A stretch of DNA of 42,827 nucleotides from a virus. Made by a program: the position numbers and the translations under genes. The notes under the pieces are model-generated. The model did not search any database and was not told the origin of the DNA. It worked only from the letters and a program-made list of their open reading frames with translations. The stretch lies in IMG/VR virus record IMGVR_UViG_3300046167_000490, positions 1 to 42,827 of that record; one strand, 5' to 3'. Of this stretch, positions 374 to 42,827 are shown piece by piece; within the stretch, counting starts at the first letter, position 1; every line of letters starts with the position of its first letter.

Positions 374-826
374 TTATTCGTCGTTTTGCGCCGCCGTCAC
401 GTCTTTTGCCATGTCCGCCCGTTCCGCCTCCCACCGATCGATCATGCTTGCCAGCTGGTCAGGTGTCATCTCGGCGAGGCTGCGCCCGTCAGCTGCGCCG
501 TCGCCGTTCTTGTTCAGGTCTCCGGCCAGCTCGAGCGCCGTGCGGGCGGCTGAAACCTTGGCCGACGCCGGTGCATCAGGGTCGACCATCACCACGCGCA
601 GCGTATCAGCTGCCAAGTTGGCGAGGTCGGTTTGATAGAGTGTTTGTCTCGCCTGCCGGATAAGTAGCATGACGGAAGGATTGCGGGTTAAATCATAGGC
701 TGACTGCTTTGGGTGCAGATAGCCTGCCATTCGTGCGGCTTCAGTGGGCTTCTTATTCTCTCTGACCAAATACTGCACGAAGGACTTTTGTTGGTCCGTC
801 GCCTGTCTCTGCCTAATCATTCCCAC
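374..826 (-). CDS. terS: Terminase small subunit (TerS)
   Basis: A 148-150 residue protein. The N-terminal part (about residues 5-55) has the TerS-type DNA-binding layout: a T-D-Q-Q-K-x-F-V helix, then PTEAARMAGY, then a block ending in NPSVMLLI. The middle is a helical oligomerisation-like segment (LAADTLRVVM...SAARTALELAG), and the C-terminal third is acidic and glutamine-rich. TerS recognises the packaging site and hands DNA to TerL. The start may be GTG 826 or ATG 820. It sits alone at the head of the late transcript, about 10 kb along that transcript from TerL. The fit to family layout is good, but no single residue is diagnostic. Confidence 0.7.
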   Translation of the reverse strand: MGMIRQRQATDQQKSFVQYLVRENKKPTEAARMAGYLHPKQSAYDLTRNPSVMLLIRQARQTLYQTDLANLAADTLRVVMVDPDAPASAKVSAARTALELAGDLNKNGDGAADGRSLAEMTPDQLASMIDRWEAERADMAKDVTAAQNDE

Positions 827-856: not shown

Positions 857-885
857 ATTGTACCGTTGCACAACTGTGTTGACAA
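857..885 (-). promoter_or_regulatory. Promoter for terS, overlapping a GTTGACAAC palindrome
   Basis: On the minus strand, TTGTCA (885-880) is separated by 17 bases from TACAAT (862-857), and transcription would enter terS. The -35 box lies inside the palindrome GTTGACAAC (878-886). Read on the plus strand, the same palindrome supplies TTGACA (879-884), a possible -35 for the divergent early operon, although no good -10 follows it. A second palindrome, TGTCGACA (908-915), lies just downstream. The region looks like a shared control point for the early and late arms. Confidence 0.6.
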
Positions 886-937
886 CTAACGGCCATTTTG
901 GCAGTTTGTCGACAGGTGCCGACCGTAGGCATCAACA

Positions 938-949
938 AGCGCAAACAAA
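938..949 (+). repeat. Leader repeat AGCGCAAACAAA, copy 1
   Basis: The 12-mer AGCGCAAACAAA is followed by GGAAACACT and the ATG at 959, so it forms the 5' leader and ribosome-binding region of the first early gene. The same 12-mer occurs at 2144-2155 before ArdA and on the minus strand at 12256-12245. All three copies lie outside clear coding sequence. Confidence 0.75.
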
Positions 950-958
950 GGAAACACT

Positions 959-1261
959 ATGTTAAATGTACTACACGAAAGCGACGCAGGCCACGGCTGG
1001 TTGATCGTATCAGCATCAGCAGTCAAAGAGCTGGGCCTGACAGCCAACGACTTCAGCCACTATTCTTATACCAGCGTCATCGATGGTGAGCGCGTATTTG
1101 CAATCGAAGAAGACTGCGACGCCTACAAACTGCACACAACGTGCAAGGCGCAGGGCATTGAATGGAACTACACCGAGCGCACATGCACCAGCAGTGACGT
1201 ACGCAACTGGGACAGCATCGAGCGCATACAGAAACACGCGCTAGAATTGGCGGTGATGTAA
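959..1261 (+). CDS. Small early protein, unknown function
   Basis: First gene of the plus-strand early cassette, 100 residues, acidic, no membrane segment. The N-terminus reads ESDAGHGWLIVSASAVKELG. I recall an H-G-W-L-x-V pattern followed by an E-E-D-C-D-A block in small proteins of phages and plasmids, without known function. The start is supported by GGAAA seven or eight bases upstream and by the leader repeat shared with ardA. The stop overlaps the next start as TAATG, so translation is probably coupled. Its place next to an antirestriction gene makes a host-takeover or counter-defence role possible, but this is inference. Confidence 0.8.
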   Translation: MLNVLHESDAGHGWLIVSASAVKELGLTANDFSHYSYTSVIDGERVFAIEEDCDAYKLHTTCKAQGIEWNYTERTCTSSDVRNWDSIERIQKHALELAVM

Positions 1262-1527
1262 TGGCTCAACAGGTTTATGTTGTTTTTTACACGACCCGCA
1301 GCACGACAGGCACACCGGAACAACAATGGGCACCCAATGTTTTCCTGACTGACCATTGGGAGATTGAGGAAAGCAAAGCTGATGCAGAAAGTAAGTACAA
1401 TGATTTGCAAAACTCTTGCCTCGACATTCATTTGGCTGGCATTGCACCGATTGATCCAGAGTTTTCAACTGACTGGTTTGACCCAGAGGGGTCCGCATCA
1501 ATCACTCGGAGGGAGTTGTCATGTTAA
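1261..1527 (+). CDS. Hypothetical small early protein
   Basis: 88 residues, starting at the ATG that shares a base with the preceding TAA. It begins with a strand-like hydrophobic stretch (VYVVFYTT) and is otherwise soluble and acidic (WEIEESKADAESKY, FDPEG). I do not recognise a family. It ends by overlapping the next start at 1521 by seven bases, consistent with one tightly packed operon. Confidence 0.65.
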   Translation: MAQQVYVVFYTTRSTTGTPEQQWAPNVFLTDHWEIEESKADAESKYNDLQNSCLDIHLAGIAPIDPEFSTDWFDPEGSASITRRELSC

Positions 1528-1748
1528 AGAAGAATTTTAAAGAATTTGTGATTGAATACGTTTACCACTTTGAAGGCGAAAACGGCATGATCTCCGGTTC
1601 TGTAACAGCCAAGAATATATGGGCTGCTCAACAGGAGCTTGAAGGAATGTTTCCTGACGATCTGGGTGCTGATGGTTTCTGGACCAACCCAGACGGCGAT
1701 GATTTCCCGCTAAGATGGGGCGGAAAGAAACAGGAGCAGTCATGCTAG
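1521..1748 (+). CDS. Hypothetical small early protein
   Basis: 75 residues, acidic, with a preceding GGAGGGAG ribosome-binding site about five bases upstream of the ATG at 1521. It has an antiparallel-strand-like N-terminus (FVIEYVYHFEGENG) followed by a helix and an acidic aromatic C-terminus (FWTNPDGDDFPLRW). No family is recognised. It overlaps both neighbours by a few bases. Confidence 0.65.
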   Translation: MLKKNFKEFVIEYVYHFEGENGMISGSVTAKNIWAAQQELEGMFPDDLGADGFWTNPDGDDFPLRWGGKKQEQSC

Positions 1749-1957
1749 ACCATTTAAAGACAATTATGCGCACACCTTCCGACGCTTTGCACAACGCTTT
1801 AATTTTGGCAATTACTGCGCCGAACAATGAACGTTTCGCCCAGGCAATGGAGCAAGTCGGGCACTTTGCGTCAGCTGTGCCTGATGCAACCGTTGAGCAG
1901 ATCAAAGCAAACATCGAAACATTGTTGACAGATACGGCCGACAATGCAGGAGAATGA
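1742..1957 (+). CDS. Hypothetical small early protein
   Basis: 71 residues from the ATG at 1742, which overlaps the stop of the previous gene. A GGAGCAG ribosome-binding site at about 1733 favours this start over the in-frame ATG at 1715. Predicted all-helical (DHLKTIMRTPSDALHNAL..., then VEQIKANIETLLTDT). Function unknown. Confidence 0.6.
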   Translation: MLDHLKTIMRTPSDALHNALILAITAPNNERFAQAMEQVGHFASAVPDATVEQIKANIETLLTDTADNAGE

Positions 1958-1961
1958 AGAC

Positions 1962-2093
1962 ATGACCACAATGGAACAGATCAAAGAAGCCTTTGAGTAT
2001 TACACACGCAACCCGGCGGAGCTTGCAGGCGATTTGGTGGGCATATTGGCGCTGTGCGTCATGCTCGTCACTCTTTTGACATTCGGCGGCTGA
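1962..2093 (+). CDS. 43-residue single-span membrane protein
   Basis: A short ORF starting at ATG 1962, four bases after the previous stop; GGAGAA lies about 10 bases upstream. The N-terminal half is polar and helical (EQIKEAFEYYTRNPAELAGD). The C-terminal half is one clear hydrophobic span (LVGILALCVMLVTLLTF). It would sit in the inner membrane with most of its mass on one side. Its place in the early cassette suggests a host-takeover or exclusion role, which is inference. Confidence 0.6.
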   Translation: MTTMEQIKEAFEYYTRNPAELAGDLVGILALCVMLVTLLTFGG

Positions 2094-2104
2094 CAACAGC
2101 GGAG

Positions 2105-2124
2105 AGCGCCCCTCTGGGGGCGTT
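2105..2124 (+). terminator. GC-rich hairpin before ardA
   Basis: CGCCCC (2107-2112) pairs with GGGGCG (2117-2122) around a TCTG loop, extendable by two weaker pairs. No T-run follows, so it is more likely an attenuator or mRNA-stabilising hairpin than a full terminator. It separates the first five early genes from ardA. Confidence 0.45.
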
Positions 2125-2143
2125 CCTAGATGTTATCACATCG

Positions 2144-2155
2144 AGCGCAAACAAA
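2144..2155 (+). repeat. Leader repeat AGCGCAAACAAA, copy 2
   Basis: Same 12-mer as 938-949, here followed by AAGGAACACACA and the ardA ATG at 2168. The match extends into the GGAA ribosome-binding site and the AC-rich spacer, so the two leaders are probably related by duplication or held by a common regulator. Confidence 0.75.
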
Positions 2156-2167
2156 AAGGAACACACA

Positions 2168-2677
2168 ATGCAAATTTATATCGCATGCCTAGCCTCGTAC
2201 AATCAGGGAATTTTGCACGGCAGCTGGATCGAGCCGACCAGCGACATCGAGGAGCTGGCAGCAGAGGTCGCCAAGGTGATCGAGACCAGCCCGGCGGAAG
2301 GCGCAGAAGAGCACGCCATTCACGATTATGACGGATTTCCCGACTTGGGCGAGTATCCAAGCCTGCAAGATATTTGTGATTTCGTTGAAATGGTCGAGGG
2401 GTCTGACTTTGACGCCGATATTGTTTCAGCGGTCGTCGATGAATTTCCCAACGACAAAGGCACAGCGCAGCATGTGCTTGACGAGAATTTTGGCATTCAT
2501 GACAATTTCCAAGCCTATGCAGACGAATTTGCAGACGAAATGATGGCTTGCCACGACTGCGGCGGTGGCGAATGGATCAAAGAATATTTTGATTACGACA
2601 AACACGCCGACGCCTTATCGTATGACTATATTCAAATTGAAGTAAAAGGCGGCGTGTTGATCGCCCCCAACAAATAG
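2168..2677 (+). CDS. ardA: ArdA-type antirestriction protein (DNA mimic)
   Basis: 169 residues. The opening IYIACLASYNQGILHGSWIE matches the ArdA N-terminal signature (strand, then Y-N-x-G-x-L-H-G-x-W). It is followed by the helix EELAAEVAKVIETSP, then EEHAIHDYDGFPDLGEYPSL, the second signature block. It is strongly acidic throughout (FDADIVSAVVDEFPND, YADEFADEMM), as expected of a protein that mimics DNA and blocks type I restriction-modification enzymes. ATG 2168 was chosen over the longer frame from 2054 because AAGGA lies 7-11 bases upstream and homology begins there. It is the best-recognised gene of the early cassette and suggests early protection of the entering genome. Confidence 0.9.
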   Translation: MQIYIACLASYNQGILHGSWIEPTSDIEELAAEVAKVIETSPAEGAEEHAIHDYDGFPDLGEYPSLQDICDFVEMVEGSDFDADIVSAVVDEFPNDKGTAQHVLDENFGIHDNFQAYADEFADEMMACHDCGGGEWIKEYFDYDKHADALSYDYIQIEVKGGVLIAPNK

Positions 2678-2686
2678 GGGCCAATA

Positions 2687-2869
2687 ATGACAATAATACT
2701 CTGCCCAGAATGCAAGACGAGAACAGGCACAGAAGAAAGCCGCCATCATTTCAAGTATGGCTTTCCGACTGTCAGGCGAGTGCGGCGCTGTAAGAAGTGC
2801 CGTTATCGCGTGGTCACGGTTGAGCTGCCGGAGGAGATTGGCGACGAGGTTTTTCTGGAAGAGGAGTAG
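2687..2869 (+). CDS. Zinc-ribbon protein resembling the NrdR N-terminal domain
   Basis: 60 residues with Cys6-x2-Cys9 and Cys35-x2-Cys38. The spacing and the sequence between them (ESRH near residues 17-20, VRRVRRCKKC at 29-38, then R-V-V-T-V-E) resemble the zinc ribbon of NrdR-type repressors, but the ATP-cone domain is absent. It could be a small DNA-binding regulator of the early cassette. The start follows the ardA stop by nine bases with AGGGG upstream. Its 3' end overlaps the 3' end of the convergent gene 3230-2814 by 56 bases. Confidence 0.65.
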   Translation: MTIILCPECKTRTGTEESRHHFKYGFPTVRRVRRCKKCRYRVVTVELPEEIGDEVFLEEE

Positions 2870-3230
2870 CGTTTACCGCATCAACTAAGAGATCGAAGAG
2901 GCTGGCTTCTGTGTCAGCCTTTTTTATTGCCTCGTAACCAATGGAGGCATATCCGGCCACATCGGTCCAGCTGTCCAGCTTTGTCGGATCGTGTGCCAGT
3001 CTGCCTAGTTTGAGGATGATACCAAAGGCGGCAACGTCGTGCGCCTCTAGCTCTCTGCCTGTTCGATGTCCCATGTATGCCGCCAGCATTTCTGCGGTTC
3101 GCGCCATGTTGGTGGTTGGGTCTCCATATTCCTTGTTGCGTCCATTTGCTACCAGCTGCTCGGCTTCACGCAGCATCTGTTGACGTGGTGATGGTGTAGC
3201 GTCCATTTCATCAGAATGGGATTTCGTCAT
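2814..3230 (-). CDS. DUF6378-type phage protein
   Basis: 138 residues (130 if translation starts at ATG 3206). It shows the pattern I associate with DUF6378: EAEQLVANGRNKEYGDP, then DVAAFGIILKLGRLAHDPTK, then DSWTDVAGYASIG. The arrangement of acidic residues in these helices recalls MazG-like nucleotide hydrolases, but that link is inference. GGAAAGG lies about 10 bases upstream of ATG 3230. It overlaps the preceding gene by 20 bases and is the last gene of the minus-strand early operon. The terminator of the opposing operon lies inside its coding sequence. Confidence 0.7.
   Translation of the reverse strand: MTKSHSDEMDATPSPRQQMLREAEQLVANGRNKEYGDPTTNMARTAEMLAAYMGHRTGRELEAHDVAAFGIILKLGRLAHDPTKLDSWTDVAGYASIGYEAIKKADTEASLFDLLVDAVNATPLPEKPRRQSPPAAQP
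2899..2925 (+). terminator. Rho-independent terminator of the early plus-strand operon
   Basis: AGGCTGGC (2899-2906) pairs with GTCAGCCT (2913-2920), eight pairs with one G-T, around a six-base loop, followed by TTTTTT (2920-2925). It begins 30 bases after the stop of the zinc-ribbon gene. It is embedded antisense in the coding region of the convergent gene 3230-2814. Confidence 0.8.
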
Positions 3231-3822
3231 CGAGTATAACCTTTCCTTTGGTTGGTGTGATCTTTGTGATTTTGGAGTCTGGGAATATTTCTTTGGTTTT
3301 GGCGATCATGTCGGTCTCTACCGCTTTTATGATCCGGCAGATTTCATCGAGGCTGTAGACCTTTGGGTATTCTGTTCGGTCGACGGCTGCGGTGTCGGCT
3401 TCATGCTTGACGATTGCAAATTTCTCGCCACCAGCATCAGGGGGCGCGATTGCGTACCATACGTCAGCATCTCCAGGGTTGTTTCCATTTTTGATCGCGT
3501 ATGCTTCGACGGCTTTCCAGCCTTGAATTAGGTTGTCGGCTTTCTGGACGAGGTAGTTGTGGTCATCGCCTAGCGCAGCATCAGAGAAGTTTTGTCTGGC
3601 TTGCTCGAATGCGACAGCAAGTTTAGGCGGTGCTAGTTCTTCCAGCTTTCCGATCCCCCATTTCATTTCCAAATCACGGGCAACCTTGTCGACGGATCTT
3701 ATAGCTGCGTAACAAATGTCAGATCGTTTATCCGAAAACATCGCTGGTGCTTTCCAGCTGTCATCCGCAACAACTTTTTTTCGGCTCTTCTTTGGTTCGC
3801 TATATCTTGTTTTCGTCGTCAC
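3211..3822 (-). CDS. Phage protein with an SSB-like acidic tail
   Basis: 203 residues from GTG 3822, which has GGAGGAGG about six bases upstream; a longer in-frame start exists at 3843. The body (SDICYAAIRSVDKVARDLEMKWG, then a helical middle and GDADVWYAIAP) recalls an unnamed family encoded near primases in phages. The last residues, LDDEIPF, closely match the C-terminal tip of bacterial SSB proteins that docks repair and replication partners, but no OB-fold SSB sequence is recognisable upstream. It may mimic SSB or bind SSB partners. Just upstream lies the GGCGGAAGT repeat array. Confidence 0.7.
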   Translation of the reverse strand: MTTKTRYSEPKKSRKKVVADDSWKAPAMFSDKRSDICYAAIRSVDKVARDLEMKWGIGKLEELAPPKLAVAFEQARQNFSDAALGDDHNYLVQKADNLIQGWKAVEAYAIKNGNNPGDADVWYAIAPPDAGGEKFAIVKHEADTAAVDRTEYPKVYSLDEICRIIKAVETDMIAKTKEIFPDSKITKITPTKGKVILDDEIPF

Positions 3823-3857
3823 GTCGTACCTCCTCCAATACACTACTAATCCGCATT

Positions 3858-10308: not shown

Positions 10309-10722
10309 ATGACAAAAACCATAATGACAAGAGGCGGAAATACGCCAACAAATGACATAGATTACAGTCAAAAAGTTTTAACGCGGCAAGAATTTGGCAA
10401 AAGATTGTACAATTTTATGATGCAAAGAAGGATGTCGCAAAGCGATTTATCGCGCGCGTCTGGAATGGGTCGTGACAGCATCAGCCAATATGTCAGGGGG
10501 CGATCAGTCCCTTCACCTCTGAACCTCACCAAATTGGCCGAAGCACTAAATGTTGAGGTCGATGTGCTGTTCCCTAACTATGACGCGCAAGCAAACGCAT
10601 CTGAGCAGCCAACGCTGGAAATCAAAAGTATCGAGGCTGACGCAGAACATTTCTGGCTGCGCGTGAACATGAAGGTTCCAGCCGAGAAGGCTTTAGAAGT
10701 TATGAAAATCCTAAAAGGCTGA
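10309..10722 (+). CDS. CI-like XRE-family repressor without a peptidase domain
   Basis: 137 residues from ATG 10309; GGGGGC lies just upstream, and the longer frame from 10255 crosses the promoter. Residues about 25-85 form an HTH_3 domain (FGKRLYNFMMQRRMSQSDLSRASGMGRDSISQYVRG, then LTKLAEALNVEVDVLFP). The C-terminal 45 residues are a small domain (HFWLRVNMKVPAEKALEVMKIL) likely for oligomerisation. There is no S24/LexA-like Ser-Lys peptidase, so induction is not by classical RecA-stimulated cleavage. It probably maintains lysogeny by repressing the cro promoter. Confidence 0.8.
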   Translation: MTKTIMTRGGNTPTNDIDYSQKVLTRQEFGKRLYNFMMQRRMSQSDLSRASGMGRDSISQYVRGRSVPSPLNLTKLAEALNVEVDVLFPNYDAQANASEQPTLEIKSIEADAEHFWLRVNMKVPAEKALEVMKILKG

Positions 10723-10726
10723 CGAT

Positions 10727-11026
10727 GTGCAACTCCTGACTCAAAAGGAGGCTGCGCGCTTGCTGTCGGTGTCGATCAAGACGGTCACCAGATACAGAAA
10801 GAACGGTCTTCTACCCACCATTCTCCTGACAAACACGGCAGTCCGCATCCCCAGGGTGGCTGTTGAAAAATTCATTGAGGTATCACGATGTCAAAACCAC
10901 CGGAGCTGCAACAACACAAAAACGGAACGTGGTATGTCGCGTTTCGAGAAAACGGACGCAGCAAAAGAACATCACTTAGGACAAAGGATCAGGAAATCGC
11001 AACGCTGCGGTTTTCGGGTTGGCTAA
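10727..11026 (+). CDS. Excisionase/MerR-type HTH protein
   Basis: Starts at GTG 10727. The first 55 residues are an HTH_17 excisionase-type winged helix (LLTQKEAARLLSVSIKTVTRYRKNGLLP, then AVRIPRVAVEKFIE). From about residue 57 the sequence overlaps the start of the integrase and looks like shadow translation. The natural protein may end near 10888, and the long overlap could reflect a missing base nearby. It probably assists Int in excision or regulates int. Confidence 0.65.
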   Translation: MQLLTQKEAARLLSVSIKTVTRYRKNGLLPTILLTNTAVRIPRVAVEKFIEVSRCQNHRSCNNTKTERGMSRFEKTDAAKEHHLGQRIRKSQRCGFRVG

Positions 11027-11727
11027 AGGATTACAAGCTGCACACCGAGGTGGTTAGCGATCCAACTGTGAGCGTATGCCTAGACCTGTGGATGTCACAA
11101 TGGATCGAGGGTCGGATGCTTAGTGAGGTCCGATACCCTGCTATCGTAAACAACTTGAATGCGTATTTCGGCAACATGCCTGTCAGCACTATCGAGCGTG
11201 ACCACGCTAAAAAGTTTATTGAGCTGCGCGCTAATGGTATTATCGGATCTAACAAGGCAGCGTCTGGCACTATACGCGGTGAGCTGCAACGGTTGCGCGC
11301 TTGCCTGCGCTTTATGAGTGAGCGCGTGGAGCCTAAAGAGCAGCGGATTTCTAGCGATATTATCCCATACATCGATCTACCGCCTCCGTCACCGCCCAGA
11401 GACCGAGTGCTGACTGAAGACGAGGTGCAGCTTCTGCGGGATACATGCTCGAACCACGTCATCAACGGACCTGGACGACGCCCCTCCAATCGTATGTCGA
11501 GGGTGGGGCGCTTCGTAATGATCGCGATGGAGACAGCACAGCGCAAGACGGCCATCGAGCAGCTGCGCTGGGATCAAGTCAGCATCGAGCGCAACCAGAT
11601 ACAGTTTAATCCGCAGGGGCGCTTGCAATCGATCAAACGACGCCCAGCCTTGTCCATCAGCCCCTATGCTGAAACCAGTGCTGGAGCGCGCCAAGAGCGA
11701 GGCAGTGAACGAATATGTGCTGGATAA
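10888..11727 (+). CDS. int: Tyrosine integrase, N-terminal and core part
   Basis: Residues about 10-50 form an arm-binding domain (GTWYVAFRENGRSKRTSLRTK). Residues 60-165 are the SAM-like core-binding domain. The catalytic domain starts with TEDEVQLLRD and the first catalytic Arg in TAQRKTAIEQLRWDQV (Arg219). After SISP at about 11664 the frame continues with non-homologous sequence to 11727. The remaining catalytic residues are in the overlapping frame 11666-11944. Removing one C from CCCC at 11661-11664 gives one protein of about 351 residues. Confidence 0.85.
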   Translation: MSKPPELQQHKNGTWYVAFRENGRSKRTSLRTKDQEIATLRFSGWLKDYKLHTEVVSDPTVSVCLDLWMSQWIEGRMLSEVRYPAIVNNLNAYFGNMPVSTIERDHAKKFIELRANGIIGSNKAASGTIRGELQRLRACLRFMSERVEPKEQRISSDIIPYIDLPPPSPPRDRVLTEDEVQLLRDTCSNHVINGPGRRPSNRMSRVGRFVMIAMETAQRKTAIEQLRWDQVSIERNQIQFNPQGRLQSIKRRPALSISPYAETSAGARQERGSERICAG

Positions 11728-11944
11728 GCCGTCGTCACTTTACGAGGCGGTGCGGTCTTTAGGCCAGAGCCTCAACATAGATGATTTGCATCCGCATGTA
11801 TTCCGTCATACATGGGCTACGCGCGCTATCACCCGTGGTGTGCCAATCGAAAAAGTAGCTAAGTTTATGGGAGATACGGTTGAGACAGTCAGGAAAAATT
11901 ACGAGCACCTTGCTCCCGACTATCTGGATGACGTCCATGAATAG
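11666..11944 (+). CDS. int: Tyrosine integrase, C-terminal catalytic part
   Basis: 92 residues beginning LKPVLERAKSEA. It contains the H-x-x-R box and following His/Trp (HPHVFRHTWATRAI) and the nucleophile Tyr in VRKNYEHLAP. This is the missing half of the catalytic domain of 10888-11727, offset by +1. The join lies on a CCC-T stretch where a proline tRNA could also slip to CCT, so programmed +1 frameshifting is a formal alternative to a sequencing insertion. Confidence 0.85.
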   Translation: MLKPVLERAKSEAVNEYVLDKPSSLYEAVRSLGQSLNIDDLHPHVFRHTWATRAITRGVPIEKVAKFMGDTVETVRKNYEHLAPDYLDDVHE

Positions 11945-12047: not shown

Positions 12048-12074
12048 CCAAATTGTCCGTTGTTGATCGACAAT
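12048..12074 (+). repeat. Operator-like composite repeat, copy downstream of int
   Basis: CCAAATTGTCCGTTGT (12048-12063) is identical to 10250-10265, and TGTTGATCGACAAT (12061-12074) is the reverse complement of 10272-10285. Here the two elements overlap by three bases instead of being six apart. Another CGACAG follows at once. Confidence 0.7.
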
Positions 12075-12140
12075 CGACAGCTTAAAATAAGGGGCTTCAG
12101 AGCATCGAGGTCCACATACTGTCGACAGGAACGGACAAAA

Positions 12141-12172: not shown

Positions 12173-12244
12173 GGCGCAATTTGGGCTCTTGAAATTTGAT
12201 TCGTATTTTCGTAACTAGGGCCGTGGCATTGGCGGCATAAACCT

Positions 12245-12256
12245 TTTGTTTGCGCT
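12245..12256 (-). repeat. Leader repeat AGCGCAAACAAA, copy 3
   Basis: On the minus strand AGCGCAAACAAA is followed by AGGTTTATG, very like the two early-gene leaders, but the ATG opens only a seven-codon frame. It lies 30 bases past the last late gene. It may be a remnant of a lost gene or a protein-binding site. Confidence 0.6.
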
Positions 12257-12929: not shown

Positions 12930-13270
12930 GAAGAGCGATCCAAGGGGTAGCGCAACATTTCAGGGCTGCGTAAGGCGCAGCTCGATGCCAACCCTCTGTT
13001 TTTGTATTCACGCTCAACGCGCTTTGCAGATGCAATCAGCACATTGCGCTGGAATGCAGCAACAAACGACTGGATACCGAATACAATTCTACCCACGGGA
13101 CTTTCTGCATACATTGGTCTGTCGATGATCTTAGGGTCTTGAATAGTTTGGTCTGTGAACCGGCGTGTAGCAAGAGCCAGTATTTCACCCATGTCTGACA
13201 GCTCACCAGATCGATCTATGATGCTGTCAATTTCGTACATGCCTTTTTCATTCTTCTCCAGGTTCATCAT
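12926..13270 (-). CDS. Giant polyvalent protein, near-C-terminal part
   Basis: 114 residues from ATG 13270, overlapping the 2251-residue frame as ATGATGA. The block ATRRFTDQTIQDP...AESPVGRIVFGIQSFVAAFQRNVL matches a segment I recall near the C-terminus of giant phage internal proteins. The gene was therefore probably continuous with 20022-13267 (adding one T to TTT at the junction fuses them). The overlap could also be normal coupled translation. The last 10 or so residues are out-of-frame sequence. Confidence 0.6.
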   Translation of the reverse strand: MMNLEKNEKGMYEIDSIIDRSGELSDMGEILALATRRFTDQTIQDPKIIDRPMYAESPVGRIVFGIQSFVAAFQRNVLIASAKRVEREYKNRGLASSCALRSPEMLRYPLDRSS

Positions 13271-16200
13271 AAATCAGCAAACTGATCCATGTCGTCTGGA
13301 CGCACTCCGAAGTCTTGCAGAACCTCACGCGCTCGATCCTTCATTCGTGGGCTGGAAGGCTTTGCGTATTGCTCTCCAAGCTGACCAAGGTAACGTATGC
13401 CAACCCGCAAACTGCCACGGCGCTGCGCGTTAGTAATCGAGATCAAACCCGTCCTAAAAAAGAACCGACCGAGGCGCGCTGCATTCTTTGAATCTTCCTC
13501 TGCTGTACCTCCGACACGGTTAGCAATGACCTCTCCGCTTTCCGGCAGATCTATCACACCTAATATGCTGCCCAGTTGTTTGTAGTATTGCTTGCGCTCT
13601 CTGGCTGTCCGGCCTCTGACAAACGTGGCAAACTCGTCCAGAGAATAGGCAAAAGTACGAAACCCGTCAGTCACGCTTCCAGTTGTAACAGCTGCCGTCA
13701 TCGGTTCAGCGATGCTTGATATGACAGCCCGTGGAAGCAAGGCCATAGTGCCAAACGTGTTGAGAGTATTGAGAACTGTTTCTAGTGCAAAATCAGCTGG
13801 CGCTCCAGTTCCAGTAACCACTTGTACAATATCCTGTATTTGACGTACTTCGTGTTCCTTCATGCCAGCTGCGGCCATTTCTTCAGAGACATAGCTCATA
13901 AAGTCGTGAACATTGCCTGCCGGATCGATAGAGTTTCCACTGGTCCGTTTGCGCTTTCCCTTTGGAACCGTCTTCGTGCCAAAGCGTTTTTCATACTCAA
14001 CCTTGCGCGTAACACCTGAGATATAATTTGTTATTGCCTCTGTTGGATCGAGGTAGAAGTCTACCATGTATGTGTCGGCCTCTGGCGGTAGCTTACGGGA
14101 TTTAGCAAAGCTACCCTGCACCCCGTGGCGCGATATGTCGCCAACCTGACGGCGCACAACTCGATCATACCAATCATTCGCAGCTTCTGTGCTGTAGGGG
14201 TCGCGCAAATCTTCATAGAGCTGTTGGTGCAAGTCCACCACTTCCTCTTGTAGCTGCATTATGTTGGCTTCAACATCACCTGGGTCTACCTCTGGATCAT
14301 CCAGCTTTGCGCTTTCGCGCTCTATTTGCTTCAGCTTAAACTTTAGCTCCTCAGCCGCATCTGCGGTGCTTTCATCTAACGAGTCTCTGAGGCTTCTAGC
14401 CATTTTAACCAAAGCCGACGCCTGCTCTGCGTCGTTTACATCCAGCGCGCCCAACTCATTTTCGTAGATGACGTCAGAATATAGCGCCTTGGCTCCACGC
14501 TTTTTCTCTCCTGGCTTACCATTTACAAACTTCTCTTTGCTGTCAGCAACAAGAAGAGCATCCATCATACGAGGCATGAACCCGCCTTCTGGCAAGTAGT
14601 TTACATCCAAACCGTTCTTGCGCATGTAATCGTACATAGGGTTCAGCAACTTGTTGCGGATGTCACCGGCTGCGCGTTTGATTCTGTCTGGCGCATTTGC
14701 TTGTGTTGTCTCGTCACTTGTAAGGAACAAACGAAGTTCTTTGTTATCTAAAGCACCAAAGCTGTCTAGCTTATGTTTCTCCAGCAATGTCGCCCATATA
14801 CCAGCGTAACGCCTAGACGCGCCGCGTACAGCCTCTTCAAACGTTCCTCCTGATACCGTAACGCGGTTATCAGTTGAGCCGGGATCTGTAGCTACCCGCT
14901 CGATGACACTTTCGATCAATGCTTTTGCCCGAGTATTATCTTTGTATCTACTCGCCATGTTGAACAGGATGCCGCGCTTCGTGTTGATTATTACAACACC
15001 AGCTGTATCTTGAAAGCGCGCTAAGTCAGATTTGTAACGCTGTGGGCGGCTTCTAATCTTCTGCCGCATAACTTTATGTTCGTTCCAAGCTCTCTTTTGA
15101 TCGGCAATAATTCCAATGCGCTCTTTCTTTGTCAGATCGACTTCTTTGTAAAACTCTGCTTGCGCATCGATCATGTCGGTATCGCCAGGAGCATCTGCGG
15201 CCTTACCCTCTTGGATAACGTCAGCGCGCAGCTCGTCCATCAAACGATCCATTGCCATGAATATCCGCATCCGGTCGGGGTCATTAGGATACGTTAGCGC
15301 CAAGCGGTCATCGCCACCCTTAACTTTATCCATAGCCATTTCGTATGCTTCGTTCTCAAATGAAATAAATTCTGTGTTGCCGCCAGCCGCCTCTACGTTT
15401 CGAGCGATGTAAGCCTCGAATGCTCGAGCAAACATTTCTGTTGGTCGGGTCCAGTAGCTGACGTCACTTTTGTTTTCGGTGGCAAATGTCTCTGCATCCT
15501 TTCGGTACTGCGACTTAGCTATTGGTTTCTTGGAGCTGCCTTCGCGCAACTTCCGCAGCTGTTCTTTCGCATCAGCCAGTTTCTTAATGGGCTTACCGCT
15601 AGTGCGCTTGTCTTGTTTGGCTTGCAGTCTGGCAACTTCGCCTTCCAGCTTCATTATCTCGGCAGATACCTCGGCGTTATCCATAAACATGGCGTTCATA
15701 AGATCGCCCATTGCCTCGACTACATTCTGCGGGGCGTTGTCAGAGTAAACCATTTCGCCACTTTTAAGGTTGGTGCGAATACGGCCAGTAACACCTCTGT
15801 CCCAGTTTTTTCCAATCCGGTCTAAGATATGGTAATCTAGCGCGTGGCCCCATTCATGGGCGAAGCTGTTCGAGCGCCCAGGCATTAAAATCACTGGACC
15901 AGTTACGGGGTTTACATCAGACTGGTAAGAGTCCGGTGTAGTTGCTTCTTTGTTGACATAAGCGGCTAGGTATCCACCCCAAGCATTTTGAGGGAGCGCC
16001 AAGCCCAATGTCCCGTCAAGGCCGATAGCCTTGTTAGGCATTGCCATTGTATGCGTCATCCACTGTAGGTTGTGGTAAGCATCGAGCAAAGCATTCACTT
16101 GGTCGTAACCAGCGCCTTGCTGTGGCTTCTCAACAAAACTTAGGCCAAACTTTTCTTTGACCAGCTTTGATAATATTCTGTACTGATTGGTGATCGGTAG

Positions 16201-19200
16201 GTTGACTGCCGTATCTACGTCAAATCCAGCATCCGCAAACGCATCCCGGTAAAGCGATTGCCTTAGTGTTTGGGACTGCGCAATCGTGACGCGGCCAGCT
16301 TTTGTGCCTCTTGTGTTTTCTTCTCGGGTGTCGGCATTGGCTGGGCTTGTGCTTTCGGTGTTCCGTAGTTCAGCAACACCCTCGAGACTTTGCTCCACTT
16401 CACTTTCGGATCGGGCGTCATCTACTTTGCTTTCGGCTTTTGGCTTAACTGCTTCAGTTCTTTCGCCACTTCCCGCATTTCTTCGTTTTTGTACTTGTTT
16501 GCCACGCGCATCATTGCGTTTGACATTGCCTGATGCCGCAAGCTCAAGTCCTGGCTGGTTTTGTCCTTTTGCTTCACTGCGTTTCTCCTCAGTACGTTGA
16601 CGTCCAGCTTCAATTATATCTGATGCTGTTGTTTGATCTGGCAGCAGACCGCCACTTTCCTTCTGTAACGCTTCTGTTGTGTAGAAATCCAGAAAATCTT
16701 TCATTGCCTTGGTCGAATTTGCGCGGGTCAGACCTTCGTTGTAAAAAGCACGAACAAGTCTCTGAACCTCTGGGTCTGGCTCTGAAAGCATGTCTGTCTG
16801 ATTGTAGTAGTCTTGCAGCTTAGTCCCTTCACGGCGCAAGCGGCTGACTAGATTAGCCATTTCGGCAAGATCAGACGTAATGTCAAATTGCGCATCAGTC
16901 CGACCATCGGCAATTTGCTTTTTTAGCTGTGCGAACTTGGGCGCAGCAGACATAAAGGCGTTGCTGATGGCTTTAATATTTTCGTCGCTGCTTTCCAGCA
17001 TAGTTGCCAGTGTGTCTGGGTTGTCGAATGCAGAGGCTAGTATCGCATTTTTGACGCGAGATATGCCCTCCTGGCTAATTTCGCCCTTACTATTAAAGAA
17101 TGCACCTTGCTCCGTAGGTGACAGAATTTTCTTTGCATATTCGCTAACAAATCCTCTGTTTTGGGCAGCATCGATGTCGAAGTCCCCGCGATAAAGATCG
17201 ATAATCTTGCTATCGGTTAATCTTGTGGAGTCACGACTTGCGCGCTCGGTCATCGACATTTGCGCTTGAGCCTCTGTATTCGACAAGTCAGCAAACCGCT
17301 TCAGCTCTTGCACGGTCATGTCATCTGCCAGCTGCCGGACAAACACTGGCTGAGAAAAGCCTTCTGTGCTTATTCCAGCGTCTTTTAACGCGGATTGGTA
17401 ACGAGAAAGACTGTCCGATTGACTTGCGTACACCTCTTGCATCGTTAAGACGCGACCGTTGCCAGACATGATTGTACCGTCACGCGCAATGATCGGCGCT
17501 CCTGATCCCGATGTCGGATCATCCAGCAACCGGGCTGGGTTAAACATGGACCCCGCCCGTTCTTTAGCTAATGCTGCGCTTTCTTTTCTTGATCGATCAC
17601 GCGGCTGAAGATCGCCGGTTGCTTGCTTAAGATCCGCAAGCTCGATCACCCTGCCCTGCACATTGAAGTTAGCCTGTCCGTCCGGCGTTTGTACGCTTGT
17701 CACTGGCTTCGATGGAACTTCTTGACCCACCGGCTCTGCCTCTTGCGGATTAACTGCTGGAGCCTCTTCTGCAACTGGAGCCGCTGGTTGTGGCGGCGCA
17801 GTCTCTTGCACCGCTGGTGCTGTAGGTGCTTCAGTCTCCACGCTCGGAGGAGAAGGTGCAGCCGGTTGCGGAGGCAAGTCTGGAGCGTTTGCCACGTTTA
17901 CCGGCTGCGAGTTGGCCGACGGTGGCTGGAGTTCACCATCGGCTTCGGGAGGTGTGGGGTTCGGAATAGTGCCTTGAACGGACGGATTAGCAGGGGCGGA
18001 TTGAATTTTCGGTATAGCATCTTGCGACAAGACTGCCTGCAACCGGCCAATGGTCTGATCTATGTCTGCGTCAGACACCGCTCGACTACCTTTATAACCT
18101 TTAACATTTGCATTAATCTGCCTGATTAAACGCATTGCGATGCCAGCGTTAGCTAAATAGTCTCTTCCGTCTTTTATTGAATCAGGCATTTTATCGTCGT
18201 TTTTGCGCACGTCGTTATAATGGTATCCCATTTCGTGCATTTGGTCAGAAATGGCCTGCATAGTCTTCTGTAGCTCACGCAGTATAGGTCCAGTCCTAGT
18301 ATCTTCTAACGCCTGATCTAGCTCCGCTTGTTCTTTCGGGCTTTGGCTAACAAAACTGGTAAATACGTTTTCGTCTCGCGGCTTTAAAGAGGAAGTGCTT
18401 GACGCTTTGCGCTCCGCTTCATCCACTTTTGCTTTAAGAAATTTTAATTGTTCTGGATTAATTCCGTCAGGATTGTCGAGTTTGCGCCTGTAAACGTCAG
18501 CCATCTTGTCGTCGCCGACTGCGCGAAGTCGCATTTCTAAGTCAACAATTTGCTCTTCCAAAGACAGCTCTTGAGGCCGCGACACGTCTATCGCCTCTTG
18601 TTGCGCCGTAGTTGAAAACTCAAAGTTGTCGATGTCGCGCATAGTCTGCTTTGCGGCAAGAGCGACAGGATCACCACCCGCAGTTGTTGAAACTGCAACT
18701 TCACCAGCGCCAGGAACAATCTCAGCAACGCCCTCCAAGGCGATCTCTCCAAGATTTAAGCCATCACGGAAACCGCCCTGTTGCTCCAGTAGTTGAGCTG
18801 AAAACTCCCCAACACTGCCTAACGGCCCTTGCACACCAGCTAGTTCAGCTGTGGCCGCACCGCCAACCCCCAAGCGACCGCTGCCGCGAACCTTTGCCAT
18901 GTTTACTAATTTACCGGCCATGCCCATCGACAAAGCATCAAATAGACCGATTGCAATACCGCGCCGTGCGCCACGCTCTCTGGCGCGACCCCAAAACTCT
19001 GGATTGTCGAACAGCTCTTGCACTGCTGCATCATCATTTAAATCAACGCCTGATGATCTGATCTCTTCATCGAGGACATTGCCAAACTCTATCGCGCCAG
19101 ACGTTGCGCCGACAGCTGCCGCGCCAGCAAAGATATTGCCACCTGTTACTATAGTAGTGCCTGTTGCCGCCAAAAGGCTCGGGATCATTTGCGGGATACT

Positions 19201-20022
19201 TTCGCCAACAACACTGAGAACAGCGCCGGGGTTGTCCTTCATAGCGCGAAATGCTTCGCCCCAAGTATTGTTTTCGTCTGTGATTGCGCGCAGCCCATCT
19301 TGCACGTCCTTTGGAGCTTCTGGGATTATCCGGTTAAGCTCTTGCATACGGTCTATGTAATCGCCGGTATCCTTTAAGCCCAGTTGCTGTGCAAACAGAT
19401 TGAACACACCTAGCATCCGTCCTGTGCCGCGCGAAATGGCATTGTTCGACATTTGGTAAGTGTTGCCGAAAGCCATCTCGTCTATTGCCGCAGCATCACT
19501 TATAGGCATCCCGCTAACTGGGTTGCGGGTCGTGGTGTAGTTTCCTGGAAGACCTTGCACCTGTGATATGCTTGGGTTTATGTTTGCTTCTGTCTTTGCA
19601 ATCGTTGGGCCTGGTTGCTGCATCACATCTGCAAGCCTTTGGCGTTCTGTTTCCAATGCTTGCTGCCCGGTAACAGCCGGGTCGAAAGTCTTAGGATAGA
19701 ACACAGAGTCCAGCTCAGTTGTATTGGGCGCATTAGCAATCTGCGCTGCGCGGTTTTGATCTGCAATCTGCTGCGCCAGCAACGCATTCGTTTCAGTCAC
19801 TCCAGACGTCGGGCTGCGGAAACCACCTGTCGGGTCTACCGGCGGCATGTCAGTTATTGGGGAGGGTTCACTGATCGCCGCAACAGGAGGGATTGCAGTT
19901 TCCGCCGGTAGGTCTGCGAAGGGATTAAAAATGTCAGAGGAATTTGTGTCTTTGAAGGGATCAAAGATACTTGCCTTTTCCGCGACTTTTTCATCTTCAA
20001 AGGGATTGAATATATCGGCCAT
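13267..20022 (-). CDS. Giant polyvalent internal virion protein (DdrB/ParB-like and metallopeptidase-like domains)
   Basis: 2251 residues. The N-terminus repeats an I-F-(N/D)-P-F motif three times in 40 residues. A Gly/Ala-rich hydrophobic segment lies near 270-310, and a Pro/Ala-rich linker near 680-775. Residues about 780-1070 resemble the DdrB/ParB-like nuclease domain (SGAPIIARDGTIMSGNGRV, then FVRQL, SNTEAQAQMS). Residues about 1240-1440 resemble a large polyvalent-protein domain ending in FAHEWGHALDYH, an H-E-x-x-H zinc-peptidase motif at 1389-1393. Long helical regions follow. Multi-domain proteins of this kind are thought to be ejected with the DNA and act early against the host. Full length with the two downstream pieces would be about 2540. 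Confidence 0.8.
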   Translation of the reverse strand: MADIFNPFEDEKVAEKASIFDPFKDTNSSDIFNPFADLPAETAIPPVAAISEPSPITDMPPVDPTGGFRSPTSGVTETNALLAQQIADQNRAAQIANAPNTTELDSVFYPKTFDPAVTGQQALETERQRLADVMQQPGPTIAKTEANINPSISQVQGLPGNYTTTRNPVSGMPISDAAAIDEMAFGNTYQMSNNAISRGTGRMLGVFNLFAQQLGLKDTGDYIDRMQELNRIIPEAPKDVQDGLRAITDENNTWGEAFRAMKDNPGAVLSVVGESIPQMIPSLLAATGTTIVTGGNIFAGAAAVGATSGAIEFGNVLDEEIRSSGVDLNDDAAVQELFDNPEFWGRARERGARRGIAIGLFDALSMGMAGKLVNMAKVRGSGRLGVGGAATAELAGVQGPLGSVGEFSAQLLEQQGGFRDGLNLGEIALEGVAEIVPGAGEVAVSTTAGGDPVALAAKQTMRDIDNFEFSTTAQQEAIDVSRPQELSLEEQIVDLEMRLRAVGDDKMADVYRRKLDNPDGINPEQLKFLKAKVDEAERKASSTSSLKPRDENVFTSFVSQSPKEQAELDQALEDTRTGPILRELQKTMQAISDQMHEMGYHYNDVRKNDDKMPDSIKDGRDYLANAGIAMRLIRQINANVKGYKGSRAVSDADIDQTIGRLQAVLSQDAIPKIQSAPANPSVQGTIPNPTPPEADGELQPPSANSQPVNVANAPDLPPQPAAPSPPSVETEAPTAPAVQETAPPQPAAPVAEEAPAVNPQEAEPVGQEVPSKPVTSVQTPDGQANFNVQGRVIELADLKQATGDLQPRDRSRKESAALAKERAGSMFNPARLLDDPTSGSGAPIIARDGTIMSGNGRVLTMQEVYASQSDSLSRYQSALKDAGISTEGFSQPVFVRQLADDMTVQELKRFADLSNTEAQAQMSMTERASRDSTRLTDSKIIDLYRGDFDIDAAQNRGFVSEYAKKILSPTEQGAFFNSKGEISQEGISRVKNAILASAFDNPDTLATMLESSDENIKAISNAFMSAAPKFAQLKKQIADGRTDAQFDITSDLAEMANLVSRLRREGTKLQDYYNQTDMLSEPDPEVQRLVRAFYNEGLTRANSTKAMKDFLDFYTTEALQKESGGLLPDQTTASDIIEAGRQRTEEKRSEAKGQNQPGLELAASGNVKRNDARGKQVQKRRNAGSGERTEAVKPKAESKVDDARSESEVEQSLEGVAELRNTESTSPANADTREENTRGTKAGRVTIAQSQTLRQSLYRDAFADAGFDVDTAVNLPITNQYRILSKLVKEKFGLSFVEKPQQGAGYDQVNALLDAYHNLQWMTHTMAMPNKAIGLDGTLGLALPQNAWGGYLAAYVNKEATTPDSYQSDVNPVTGPVILMPGRSNSFAHEWGHALDYHILDRIGKNWDRGVTGRIRTNLKSGEMVYSDNAPQNVVEAMGDLMNAMFMDNAEVSAEIMKLEGEVARLQAKQDKRTSGKPIKKLADAKEQLRKLREGSSKKPIAKSQYRKDAETFATENKSDVSYWTRPTEMFARAFEAYIARNVEAAGGNTEFISFENEAYEMAMDKVKGGDDRLALTYPNDPDRMRIFMAMDRLMDELRADVIQEGKAADAPGDTDMIDAQAEFYKEVDLTKKERIGIIADQKRAWNEHKVMRQKIRSRPQRYKSDLARFQDTAGVVIINTKRGILFNMASRYKDNTRAKALIESVIERVATDPGSTDNRVTVSGGTFEEAVRGASRRYAGIWATLLEKHKLDSFGALDNKELRLFLTSDETTQANAPDRIKRAAGDIRNKLLNPMYDYMRKNGLDVNYLPEGGFMPRMMDALLVADSKEKFVNGKPGEKKRGAKALYSDVIYENELGALDVNDAEQASALVKMARSLRDSLDESTADAAEELKFKLKQIERESAKLDDPEVDPGDVEANIMQLQEEVVDLHQQLYEDLRDPYSTEAANDWYDRVVRRQVGDISRHGVQGSFAKSRKLPPEADTYMVDFYLDPTEAITNYISGVTRKVEYEKRFGTKTVPKGKRKRTSGNSIDPAGNVHDFMSYVSEEMAAAGMKEHEVRQIQDIVQVVTGTGAPADFALETVLNTLNTFGTMALLPRAVISSIAEPMTAAVTTGSVTDGFRTFAYSLDEFATFVRGRTARERKQYYKQLGSILGVIDLPESGEVIANRVGGTAEEDSKNAARLGRFFFRTGLISITNAQRRGSLRVGIRYLGQLGEQYAKPSSPRMKDRAREVLQDFGVRPDDMDQFADL

Positions 20023-29922: not shown

Positions 29923-31992
29923 TTACTGGTTATTAGCCCCCATCGGCGCTGGGCCTCCCCCGCCCCCTGGAAGCTGCCTCGGTGCATTATCTGCACCCCC
30001 TCCTGGTGGACCCTGCAAAGCTGGATCACCAGTTCCCGGTTGTTGCGCTTGGTTCATTGCAACAATACTAGGAATCTTATCTGCAAACGCGGAATCAAGC
30101 TCGAGCTTGTCATCGAGGCGTTTAAGCAATTCTTTAGCCAGCCATTTCGGATCTATACCCGGTATTTGCAGCAAGAACGGCATGATCCGCTCGATGTTTG
30201 CAAGCTCGGCTGCGCGGTTAGGCTTACCCGTCGATCCCGCTTCGATCTCCAAGTAAATTTCTTCCATAATCTGATCGCGCGTCATTTCGGGCCAAACAGC
30301 GCCGGGACCAACAATCTTCTTAACTTCATCGATAGACAAGTTAGCCAAGACAACTTGACCGGCAGCGCGCGTCATTTCGGACATAAAGCTGTCTAGCTCG
30401 TCAACATTCGCGCCCATCGTTGACATACGCGCGCTTTCGGCAATCGATGTCTCTGTCGCCGTAGCTCTGGACAGCCCACCAAACTGAGCCTCTTGCGCCC
30501 CAACAACAAGCTGAATGTCGTCAAATATGGTGCGTACTTCATACAAGTTCGGATCAATGCCAATCTGACCCACCGGCTGAATTACGTCATTAACCTTCTG
30601 ACCAGCTGCAAGCGCCTGCAACTCGATGACTGCGTTTGCTGGGTGCGTAGCCAACTTTTCCTTATCAGCATCCTCCAGAACACCGGCTGGTGCCGCATAC
30701 TTCGGGCGATTAGCCCTTCTGTGTTCACGCAAACCTTGACGCGCACGGTTATATTCATGCTGCATAGGCATCAAAAGGCTTATGTCTGATGGAGGATATA
30801 GATGATCTTTATGCTCGATCTCATTGAACACCAACGAAAAGATAGGCCAGAATGTTTCGACTTTTACGTCTGGCCCCATAGGCTCCCGCAAGAAGTCATT
30901 GTGACCATCGGCAATACAATACTGAACGCCAGTCTTGCGGTCATACACCTCAAAGATTTGAACTAGACCATCAGGCGCGCCTTCACCGTTAATATCGTCA
31001 TGAGAAGATCGCTGACGGTATTCATCGTATGGGCCAGTTGACCGACCCTTCATGTCATATGTTCTGTAGCTGTCTTTAAGATCGACGTCGTAAATCTCTT
31101 TTACTTCGTCTGGCGTTAAATACATTTCGTGGGCAATCCATTCTGCACCAACGAACCCGCGCAGCTGACGGCATCTAGGGTCTACAATGATTGAATTGGC
31201 CTCTGGGAAGTCAAACACCAAGCCTTCACGAATAGTAATCATAGGCTCTTCTAGTAGCGTCTGCATAGAAAGCATCAGCTCTTCGATCTCTGGGTCATCC
31301 TTTTGTATTTCACCCTTCTCTGCCTCTTGGGCTACGCGGCGAAGGAAATCCACTTGGGCTTGAACGTCTGCAATTCTAGCTGCAACTTCCGGCGCCCTAT
31401 CAACGTCACGCTGAAAGCCAACCTTAACAAAGCCAACCCCAGTAGTAATAACGCGGCGAACCAGTGCTTTCATTTGCGCCTTGAACGCTGGTTGCTGTTC
31501 TTTCATGTAGTAGTCAAAGAGATTTTCGAGCGTCTTTGCGACGTTATCGAGCATCTTACTCTCGTTCTTACCATTCATGTAATCTTGAATAATCATCGAG
31601 GCTTCTGGCGGTACGGGTAAACCGTTTTGCGAAGACGCCTCAGAAGCCATAAAGGCTTGAGCCAGTGTGTCAGACTCGCCATCCCAAACCTCATACGACA
31701 TACGGTTACGTCGCTTGGCGACTGCCTTGGGGTTTTTTGCGTAAAGAGCTGCTGTGCGCTGTTGGACGTGGCGCTGCAAGATATTGGCAACATAGTTGTC
31801 ACCAGACCAGTTCTTTTCGTCATAGCCATTAAGAACGGCGTCCATGTCAGTTCGCATTTGCTTAAACGACTTTTCGTGAAACTTCTTGGCGTGCTTCACT
31901 TTAGCCAGCCATTGATTAACCAGCGCAGTTCGACGTTGTGTAGGTTCTGACCGCTCTTCGTCTGCCGTATCTATCATCATTTCTTCGTGCAT
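29923..31992 (-). CDS. Portal protein
   Basis: 689 residues from ATG 31992, which shares a base with the TerL stop (TAATG); the in-frame TTG at 31998 is less likely. Motifs include NYVANILQRHVQQRTAALYAKNPKA, WDG, the central RRVITTGVGFVKVGF, DPRCRQLRGFVGAEWIAHE, and PPSDISLLMPMQHEYNRAR. The C-terminus is Gly/Pro-rich. This is the large-portal type of podoviruses with a barrel-like C-terminal helix (about residues 480-640). Confidence 0.85.
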   Translation of the reverse strand: MHEEMMIDTADEERSEPTQRRTALVNQWLAKVKHAKKFHEKSFKQMRTDMDAVLNGYDEKNWSGDNYVANILQRHVQQRTAALYAKNPKAVAKRRNRMSYEVWDGESDTLAQAFMASEASSQNGLPVPPEASMIIQDYMNGKNESKMLDNVAKTLENLFDYYMKEQQPAFKAQMKALVRRVITTGVGFVKVGFQRDVDRAPEVAARIADVQAQVDFLRRVAQEAEKGEIQKDDPEIEELMLSMQTLLEEPMITIREGLVFDFPEANSIIVDPRCRQLRGFVGAEWIAHEMYLTPDEVKEIYDVDLKDSYRTYDMKGRSTGPYDEYRQRSSHDDINGEGAPDGLVQIFEVYDRKTGVQYCIADGHNDFLREPMGPDVKVETFWPIFSLVFNEIEHKDHLYPPSDISLLMPMQHEYNRARQGLREHRRANRPKYAAPAGVLEDADKEKLATHPANAVIELQALAAGQKVNDVIQPVGQIGIDPNLYEVRTIFDDIQLVVGAQEAQFGGLSRATATETSIAESARMSTMGANVDELDSFMSEMTRAAGQVVLANLSIDEVKKIVGPGAVWPEMTRDQIMEEIYLEIEAGSTGKPNRAAELANIERIMPFLLQIPGIDPKWLAKELLKRLDDKLELDSAFADKIPSIVAMNQAQQPGTGDPALQGPPGGGADNAPRQLPGGGGGPAPMGANNQ

Positions 31993-42526: not shown

Positions 42527-42702
42527 CAGCTGTACCCCATAGCCTTGCTGGTCCGTGATGCCGCCTTCTTAGCCTTGTTCTTCTTACTATTAGGAAAACC
42601 AGCCTTCATATCAGCGTATGCCTTCGGACTGATCGTCGACTTGGACTTGGACCGAGACTTGCCAGACTTCTTCTGGGCATTCATGTTCTCATACAAACTC
42701 AT
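42526..42702 (-). CDS. Small basic late protein (58 residues)
   Basis: ATG 42702 overlaps the stop of the junction-spanning gene as ATGA. The sequence MSLYENMNAQKKSGKSRSKSKS is lysine/serine-rich, followed by TISPKAYADMKAGFPNSKKNKA. I recall the opening M-S-L-Y-E-N-x-N with a K-S-R-S-K-S-K-S-T-I block in phage late operons, without known function. It is coupled to both neighbours. Confidence 0.7.
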   Translation of the reverse strand: MSLYENMNAQKKSGKSRSKSKSTISPKAYADMKAGFPNSKKNKAKKAASRTSKAMGYS

Positions 42703-42827
42703 GCGAAATTACACCTCCATCGCTTCAAAGCAGCGCCCTTGCGCGTTAACTCGCCGTCCTTGCTCGTCGGACCAGAAACACCGTTCATGCGAGCGCAAAA
42801 ACTCTTCTTACGTCCAGCGCGACTACC
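42699..42827 (-). CDS. Small basic phage protein, C-terminal part (continues from bases 141-1)
   Basis: Read downward from base 42827 in the phase set by ATG 141, this encodes GSRAGRKKSFCARMNG, then TSKDGELTRKGAALKRWRC, and stops at 42701-42699. That is the second half of the 89-residue protein described at 1-141. The stop overlaps the next start (42702) as ATGA. The arginine/lysine-rich C-terminus with F-C-A-R-M and K-R-W-R-C is conserved in the family as I recall it. Confidence 0.85.
   Translation of the reverse strand, partial: GSRAGRKKSFCARMNGVSGPTSKDGELTRKGAALKRWRCNFA

Follow-up and report, generated by a model that had tools for sequence, protein, structure and literature searches.

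A probable counter-restriction operon with exchangeable gene slots, one of them holding ardA, in a probably temperate phage

Described systems and the layout of the cassette

Proteins of the ArdA family mimic DNA and inhibit type I restriction enzymes, and bacteriophage T7 carries an anti-restriction gene of its own (0.3, ocr) in its early region, within the first-expressed run of small genes. Early anti-restriction genes of phages are therefore already known. In Rhodococcus phage WC1, an ArdA homologue is transcribed early (PMC10986025). On plasmids, leading-region anti-defence islands combine an anti-restriction gene with other small genes of the same strand, methyltransferases and an upstream structured element (PMC11541004). 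In cluster K mycobacteriophages, some non-structural genes bear a short asymmetric repeat at their start codons with an inverted repeat just upstream (SAS/ESAS; PMC3203893).

The DNA analysed here (the window) is a full IMG/VR virus record, a single record of 42,827 bases from a phage described as marine. A terminal repeat was absent. A minus-strand ORF was continuous in frame over the joined ends (42680-42827 and 1-160). As it reads through the joined last and first bases, this is probably the full genome of the phage, assembled as a circle. The presence of a repressor and integrase block at 10309-11944 indicates that the phage is probably temperate. The integrase frameshift lies near 11660 and may represent an inactivated gene, a programmed shift or an assembly error. 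The terminase large subunit, assigned by reading, consists of two overlapping ORFs in different frames (31992-33573), where a frameshift or assembly error is possible. The structural region includes a single ORF of 2251 aa (13267-20022, minus strand); in Microcystis phage Mae-Yong1326-1, a related phage that bears a portal gene, the structural block likewise ends in a very long gene, annotated as a peptidoglycan transglycosylase.

Seven plus-strand ORFs were found at 959-2869, between the conserved minus-strand genes for TerS and a DUF6378 protein. The features of the locus, with the repressor and integrase genes, are as follows.

374-826, minus strand: TerS (small terminase subunit), divergent left flank; phrog_51, E 2.5e-6; conserved in relatives
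879-907, plus strand: candidate promoter, TTGACA (879-884), 17-nt spacer, CAGTTT (902-907)
907-914, plus strand: candidate operator palindrome TGTCGACA, overlapping the promoter
915-951, plus strand: g1 leader, a small hairpin (915-933) and AGCGCAAACAAAGG (938-951)
959-1261, plus strand: g1, constant first gene, 100 aa, alpha/beta fold
1261-1527, plus strand: g2, 88 aa, acidic, variable slot 2
1521-1748, plus strand: g3, 75 aa, acidic, variable slot 2
1742-1957, plus strand: g4, 71 aa, often conserved
1962-2093, plus strand: g5, 43 aa, membrane microprotein with a single span, just 5' of the ardA slot
2089-2147, plus strand: E1, between the g5 stop and ardA, a long imperfect stem with an inner hairpin (2104-2125)
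2144-2160, plus strand: ardA leader AGCGCAAACAAAAAGGA, a start-associated repeat with a ribosome-binding site
2168-2677, plus strand: ArdA, 169 aa
2687-2869, plus strand: g7, 60 aa, four-cysteine, zinc-ribbon-like
2814-3230, minus strand: DUF6378 protein, convergent right flank; PF19905, E 9.8e-21; conserved in relatives
2896-2925, plus strand: Rho-independent terminator, a stem and six T; -18.3 kcal/mol, z -3.60
10309-10722, plus strand: HTH_3 repressor
10888-11944, plus strand: tyrosine integrase, split by a frameshift

An earlier note on this DNA had described seven short, mostly overlapping genes that stand alone on the plus strand and have their own terminator. The seven ORFs were confirmed, with overlaps at only three of the six junctions (1, 7 and 7 nt) and gaps of 4, 74 and 9 nt at the others. 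They are not alone, as the repressor and integrase genes are read from the same strand. The terminator was upheld, with its stem and T6 run preserved in six relatives; it sits within the antiparallel DUF6378 gene, the 3' end of which overlaps g7 by 56 nt.

The product of 2168-2677 is certainly ArdA. Residues 3-160 matched positions 1-150 of the 155 in profile PF07275 (E 4.3e-26; 92.8 bits, cut-off 27), and matches to phrog_2059 and to the structure of Tn916 ArdA (PDB 2w82; E 9e-7) were also obtained. The likeness to the Tn916 protein (ORF18, PF07275) includes a full-length sequence match, strong acidity and a mobile-element context, and nothing notable set the two apart. The dN/dS of ardA against relatives was 0.13-0.19 in unsaturated pairs. 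From the function established for the family, this ArdA is predicted to be a type I restriction inhibitor. ArdA homologues were found in marine and rhizobial T7-like phages; the genome studied here is not T7-like, and it carries ArdA where T7 carries Ocr.

ArdA was, as the earlier note had it, the only recognised product, and the other six proteins lacked a convincing family match. The small proteins had been called mostly acidic or membrane proteins, which is accurate for the hydrophobic g5 (its C-terminal stretch, as read from the sequence) and for g1 to g4 in a mild form (net charge -6 to -10); only ArdA is strongly acidic, at -32 in 169 aa.

Gene exchange among relatives

Scans with ArdA, g1, TerS and the 3211-3843 protein yielded about 25 distinct IMG/VR contigs, mostly fragments. 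In each of them, the genes between TerS and DUF6378 were called anew and clustered, and loci from one contig were merged where recognised. Flanks and gene order were conserved across these contigs. The first gene was g1 in most relatives, g5 was present in most (a cluster of 21 membrane proteins of 38-50 aa), and g4 was frequent (13 members). Slot 2, filled by g2 and g3 in the window, held a DNA methyltransferase of about 250 aa in most relatives (phrog_757, E 1.5e-53) and small proteins in others. ORFs related to g2 occurred only in L080-L082 and L059, and g3 shared 35% identity with the C-terminal portion of a slot-2 protein in L018 and L023. The ardA slot was occupied by ArdA, by a family of 128-153 aa (c5), by a 96-aa protein (L024/L025) or by a 193-aa protein (L059). 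These four types are mutually unrelated, and ArdA and c5 were never seen in one cassette among the roughly 25 relatives.

The nearest relative, L011, has a TerS protein identical to that of the window, and in it c5 replaces ArdA from start to stop. The two sequences align in three blocks at about 92%: 164-1264, which takes in the first codon of slot 2; 1772-2170, which stops at the start codon of ardA; and a last block from 2677 on. The TerS tree indicated at least four changes between ArdA and c5, a count that is only indicative since TerS may itself recombine and its tree may not track the cassette. This pattern of swaps also fits any fast-evolving accessory island.

A check of the neighbourhood for other anti-defence genes, which had been proposed with the cassette, was positive: L014, L020, L036 and L065 combine a phrog_757-type methyltransferase with ArdA in a single cassette. 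In the window cassette ArdA was the sole known counter-defence gene recognised, rather than one of two or more. The description as a counter-defence cassette is supported by a genuine ArdA and by the methyltransferase in most relatives' slots; most of the cassette genes have no known function. The locus resembles the plasmid islands in its same-strand small genes with an anti-restriction gene, in the methyltransferases of its relatives and in its upstream structured element; it differs in belonging to a phage, in the lack of Frpo -35 and -10 sequences in that element, and in that only one anti-defence gene is recognised in the window (PMC11541004).

In T7-like Prochlorococcus phages (P-SCSP1) a c5 homologue comes first in the gene order, upstream of the RNA polymerase gene, which is the place of the anti-restriction gene in T7 itself. 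A search for c5 on plasmids found none. Judged by position only, c5 may do the same kind of job as ArdA.

Low dN/dS against relatives (g1, 0.08-0.22; g4, 0.21-0.39; g5, 0.07-0.13; g7, 0.06-0.11) indicates that these four genes are coding and under purifying selection. For g2 and g3, which have too few relatives for this test, the coding assignment is based on the open frames, the overlaps of starts with stops and a small number of distant relatives. Searches with g1 to g5 gave no above-threshold Pfam match and no convincing PHROG, NCBIfam or PADLOC family. The four cysteines of g7 have a zinc-ribbon arrangement, and its match to TIGR00244 (NrdR; E 3e-4) was below the cut-off. Among viral contigs, g1 had 19 related loci; pattern and tblastn searches of sequenced bacterial genomes found no g1 relatives. 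Tiny membrane proteins that look unrelated in sequence to g5 are encoded directly upstream of ArdA in phage Pasto and two genes upstream in phage ProddE.

Structure prediction, another check proposed earlier, gave a confident AlphaFold2 fold for g1 (pLDDT 93.9) and no clear solved relative. Foldseek comparison of the g1 and c5 folds with the PDB returned no significant match, and the best VIA-align Z scores (5.0 for g1, 5.2 for c5) are both too low for interpretation. The best of these for g1 were the MutS N-terminal domain and eIF1, which are common arrangements; three uncharacterised viral models resembled the g1 fold.

The five genes before ardA had been put forward as new inhibitors of restriction, CRISPR or abortive systems. 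Nothing connects g1 to g5 to CRISPR or abortive infection. The near-constancy of g1, usually g5 and often g4 in the operon argues against all five being independent new inhibitors. What stands of the proposal concerns the genes exchanged in the slots: the best candidates for new inhibitors are g2/g3 here and c5 in relatives.

A common N-terminus, Q-x-D-[ILM]-F followed by GSASQxGERQTDLEEL, is carried by slot-2 proteins whose C-terminal parts are unrelated, in L011 (4436-5191), L014 (6303-7088) and about 15 further slot-2 genes of relatives, with no example in the window. Its first part resembles the bacterial sliding-clamp binding motif and may bind the clamp. The codons of Q-x-D-[ILM]-F vary synonymously, as if it were selected at the protein level. 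A palindrome, E2 (AGCGCTTCCCANNNNGGGGAGCG), lies inside the slot-2 coding sequence at 4470-4493 of L011 and at equivalent positions in about 25 relatives, in a region of reduced synonymous variation (0.22 against 0.49). All 18 of its 18 IMG/VR matches appear to come from this phage family, and it is absent from the window.

Promoter, leaders and the E1 element

A promoter scan reported no strong plus-strand promoter before g1. The candidate sigma-70-like promoter at 879-907, with its overlapping candidate operator, is proposed from conservation in relatives, most of which have TTGACA or TTGACT and a downstream TTTGTC upstream of g1. Similar TGTCGA/GTCGATCAA motifs occur upstream of the repressor and near 12063-12130. 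As the TGTCGACA palindrome resembles these sequences near the repressor, expression of the cassette may be early and repressor-controlled.

The conserved leader reported before g1 and ardA was confirmed. The sequence AGCGCAAACAAA occurs exactly at 938 and 2144, and the two leaders change jointly between clades (AGCGCAAACAAA, AGCGCAAAAGAAA or AGCACAAAAA). It is also exact at 21656, on the minus strand within a structural gene. A further leader-like copy, AGCGCAAACAAAAGGT followed by TTATG, lies at 12237-12256 on the minus strand, with AGCGCAAACAAA exact at 12245; it precedes only a seven-codon ORF and is possibly the vestige of a lost gene.

As in SAS/ESAS, an inverted repeat lies immediately upstream of the start-associated repeat, here E1 before the ardA leader and a weaker hairpin before the g1 leader. 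The latter (915-933) was not significant alone (z -0.9). The SAS repeat is a 13-bp GGGATAGGAGCCC, whereas the cassette leader is AGCGCAAACAAARGGA and so is not an SAS; there are two cassette copies here against 11-19 in the mycobacteriophages, and E1 covaries, whereas little support for mRNA hairpins was found there (PMC3203893).

In the E1 alignment, which included the L059 variant found by covariance model R1, 99.0% of cells were paired and four pairs showed two-sided change (17 cells). The covariation score was reached by none of 500 shuffles and was lower for slid versions; E1 scored 74 bits with R1. The outer stem starts at the stop codon of g5. Its 3' arm, GATG, has an alternative partner in an invariant CATC downstream, with which it can form a competing hairpin. 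Single-sequence folds chose different alternatives for the window and for L036; both arms are invariant and give no covariation evidence either way. The inner nine-pair stem is nearly invariant in sequence. As much of E1 does not vary, the evidence consists in part of simple sequence conservation, which would be expected of a DNA site too.

An exact IMG/VR search with GAGAGCGCCC-N2-8-GGGCGTTCC returned 22 stretches, and those inspected carry the cassette, except L083, which looks unrelated. E1 with its leader is almost exclusive to this phage family in IMG/VR, and it precedes ArdA, c5, the 96-aa protein and the 193-aa protein alike. The R1 model found no second E1 in the window and none in the ArdA phages Pasto, ProddE, Jormungand and KM23. 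In ProddE (Desulfovibrio phage, L107), which is an unrelated phage, an annotated terminator hairpin lies directly before ardA (2329-2380), the same hairpin-then-start layout with no E1 match.

Several known classes were considered for E1 and rejected. Rfam gave no match at the gathering score in the window, and a search of 850-2950 that admitted E values up to 5 was also negative. The stem is followed by CTAGATG rather than a U-run and was not reported by the terminator scan, unlike an intrinsic terminator. A Frpo single-strand promoter is contradicted by the lack of a TTGACA or TATAAT-like hexamer and of any promoter-like hit. An integron attC site does not fit an element 5' of its gene, and informal reading found no attC-type core site.

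Proposed operation, alternatives and meaning

With fair probability, we read the cassette as an accessory operon for counter-restriction in a phage that is probably temperate, one in which a fixed frame (g1, g4, g5 and g7) is combined with swappable slots and a structured leader in common. A single sigma-70-like promoter upstream of g1 would transcribe the cassette, and the phage repressor, through the operator-like palindrome, would probably silence it in the prophage. ArdA would be made from its own slot after E1 and the start-associated repeat, and would block type I restriction enzymes by mimicking DNA, as its family does. In sister phages, slot 2 would supply a DNA methyltransferase and the ardA slot unrelated small proteins such as c5, swapped from start to stop. 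E1 would most likely set expression of the slot gene, either by refolding or through RNA processing that frees this gene from coupling to the translation of g5. Because E1 is conserved, it may also serve as a homologous-recombination arm for gene replacement. The early timing, the roles of g1 to g5 and g7, and the mechanism of E1 are what we infer from sequence. A stronger version of this proposal is tentative, and we would sooner doubt than rely on it: that E1 is a new phage cis-regulatory RNA leader with two exclusive stems, driving at least four unrelated slot proteins, and that the slot is an anti-defence gene trap. Conservation of E1 would then make gene-precise exchange of effectors possible.

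The same swaps, which stop exactly at the start codon after E1, could point to a DNA element, a recombination site or protein-binding palindrome for gene insertion with no effect on expression. The nearly invariant inner stem and the second conserved palindrome, E2, at the start of the relatives' slot-2 genes agree with this. It is rather unlikely in view of the compensatory changes at four pairs, including those of L059 in the otherwise invariant stem; moreover, E1 lies only 5' of the swapped gene, and no recombinase is evident besides the phage integrase.

The cassette as a whole might instead be an island expressed from the prophage for superinfection exclusion or host benefit, with g5, a conserved membrane microprotein, as an exclusion protein and ArdA protection as incidental. 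The probably temperate lifestyle suits such an island, and variable hotspots of P2-like phages are described as carrying anti-phage defence genes (PMC9122126). We regard it as improbable, because no cassette protein tested had a PADLOC defence match, ArdA and the methyltransferase are counter-restriction functions, and the operator-like palindrome at the promoter of g1 suggests that the cassette is repressed in the lysogen. A real possibility, if not quite what we would expect, is that g1 to g4 are host-takeover or replication-modulating proteins that have nothing to do with defence and that ArdA only shares their promoter. Nothing specific speaks against this, and g1, usually g5 and often g4 stay near-constant whatever the slot effector, as core early functions would; Roseobacter phage CRP-810 also has a weak g1-like match (E 0.01) close to its left end.

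On the counter-restriction reading, the new feature is a fixed frame in which slots swap whole genes under a single conserved structured leader, and the operon resembles a rack into which counter-defence genes are plugged. If this is true, the E1 pattern together with slot position would provide a search handle, and a gene that follows E1 would be a strong counter-defence candidate. The short list would then consist of c5, the 96-aa protein and the 193-aa protein, with g2/g3 for slot 2.
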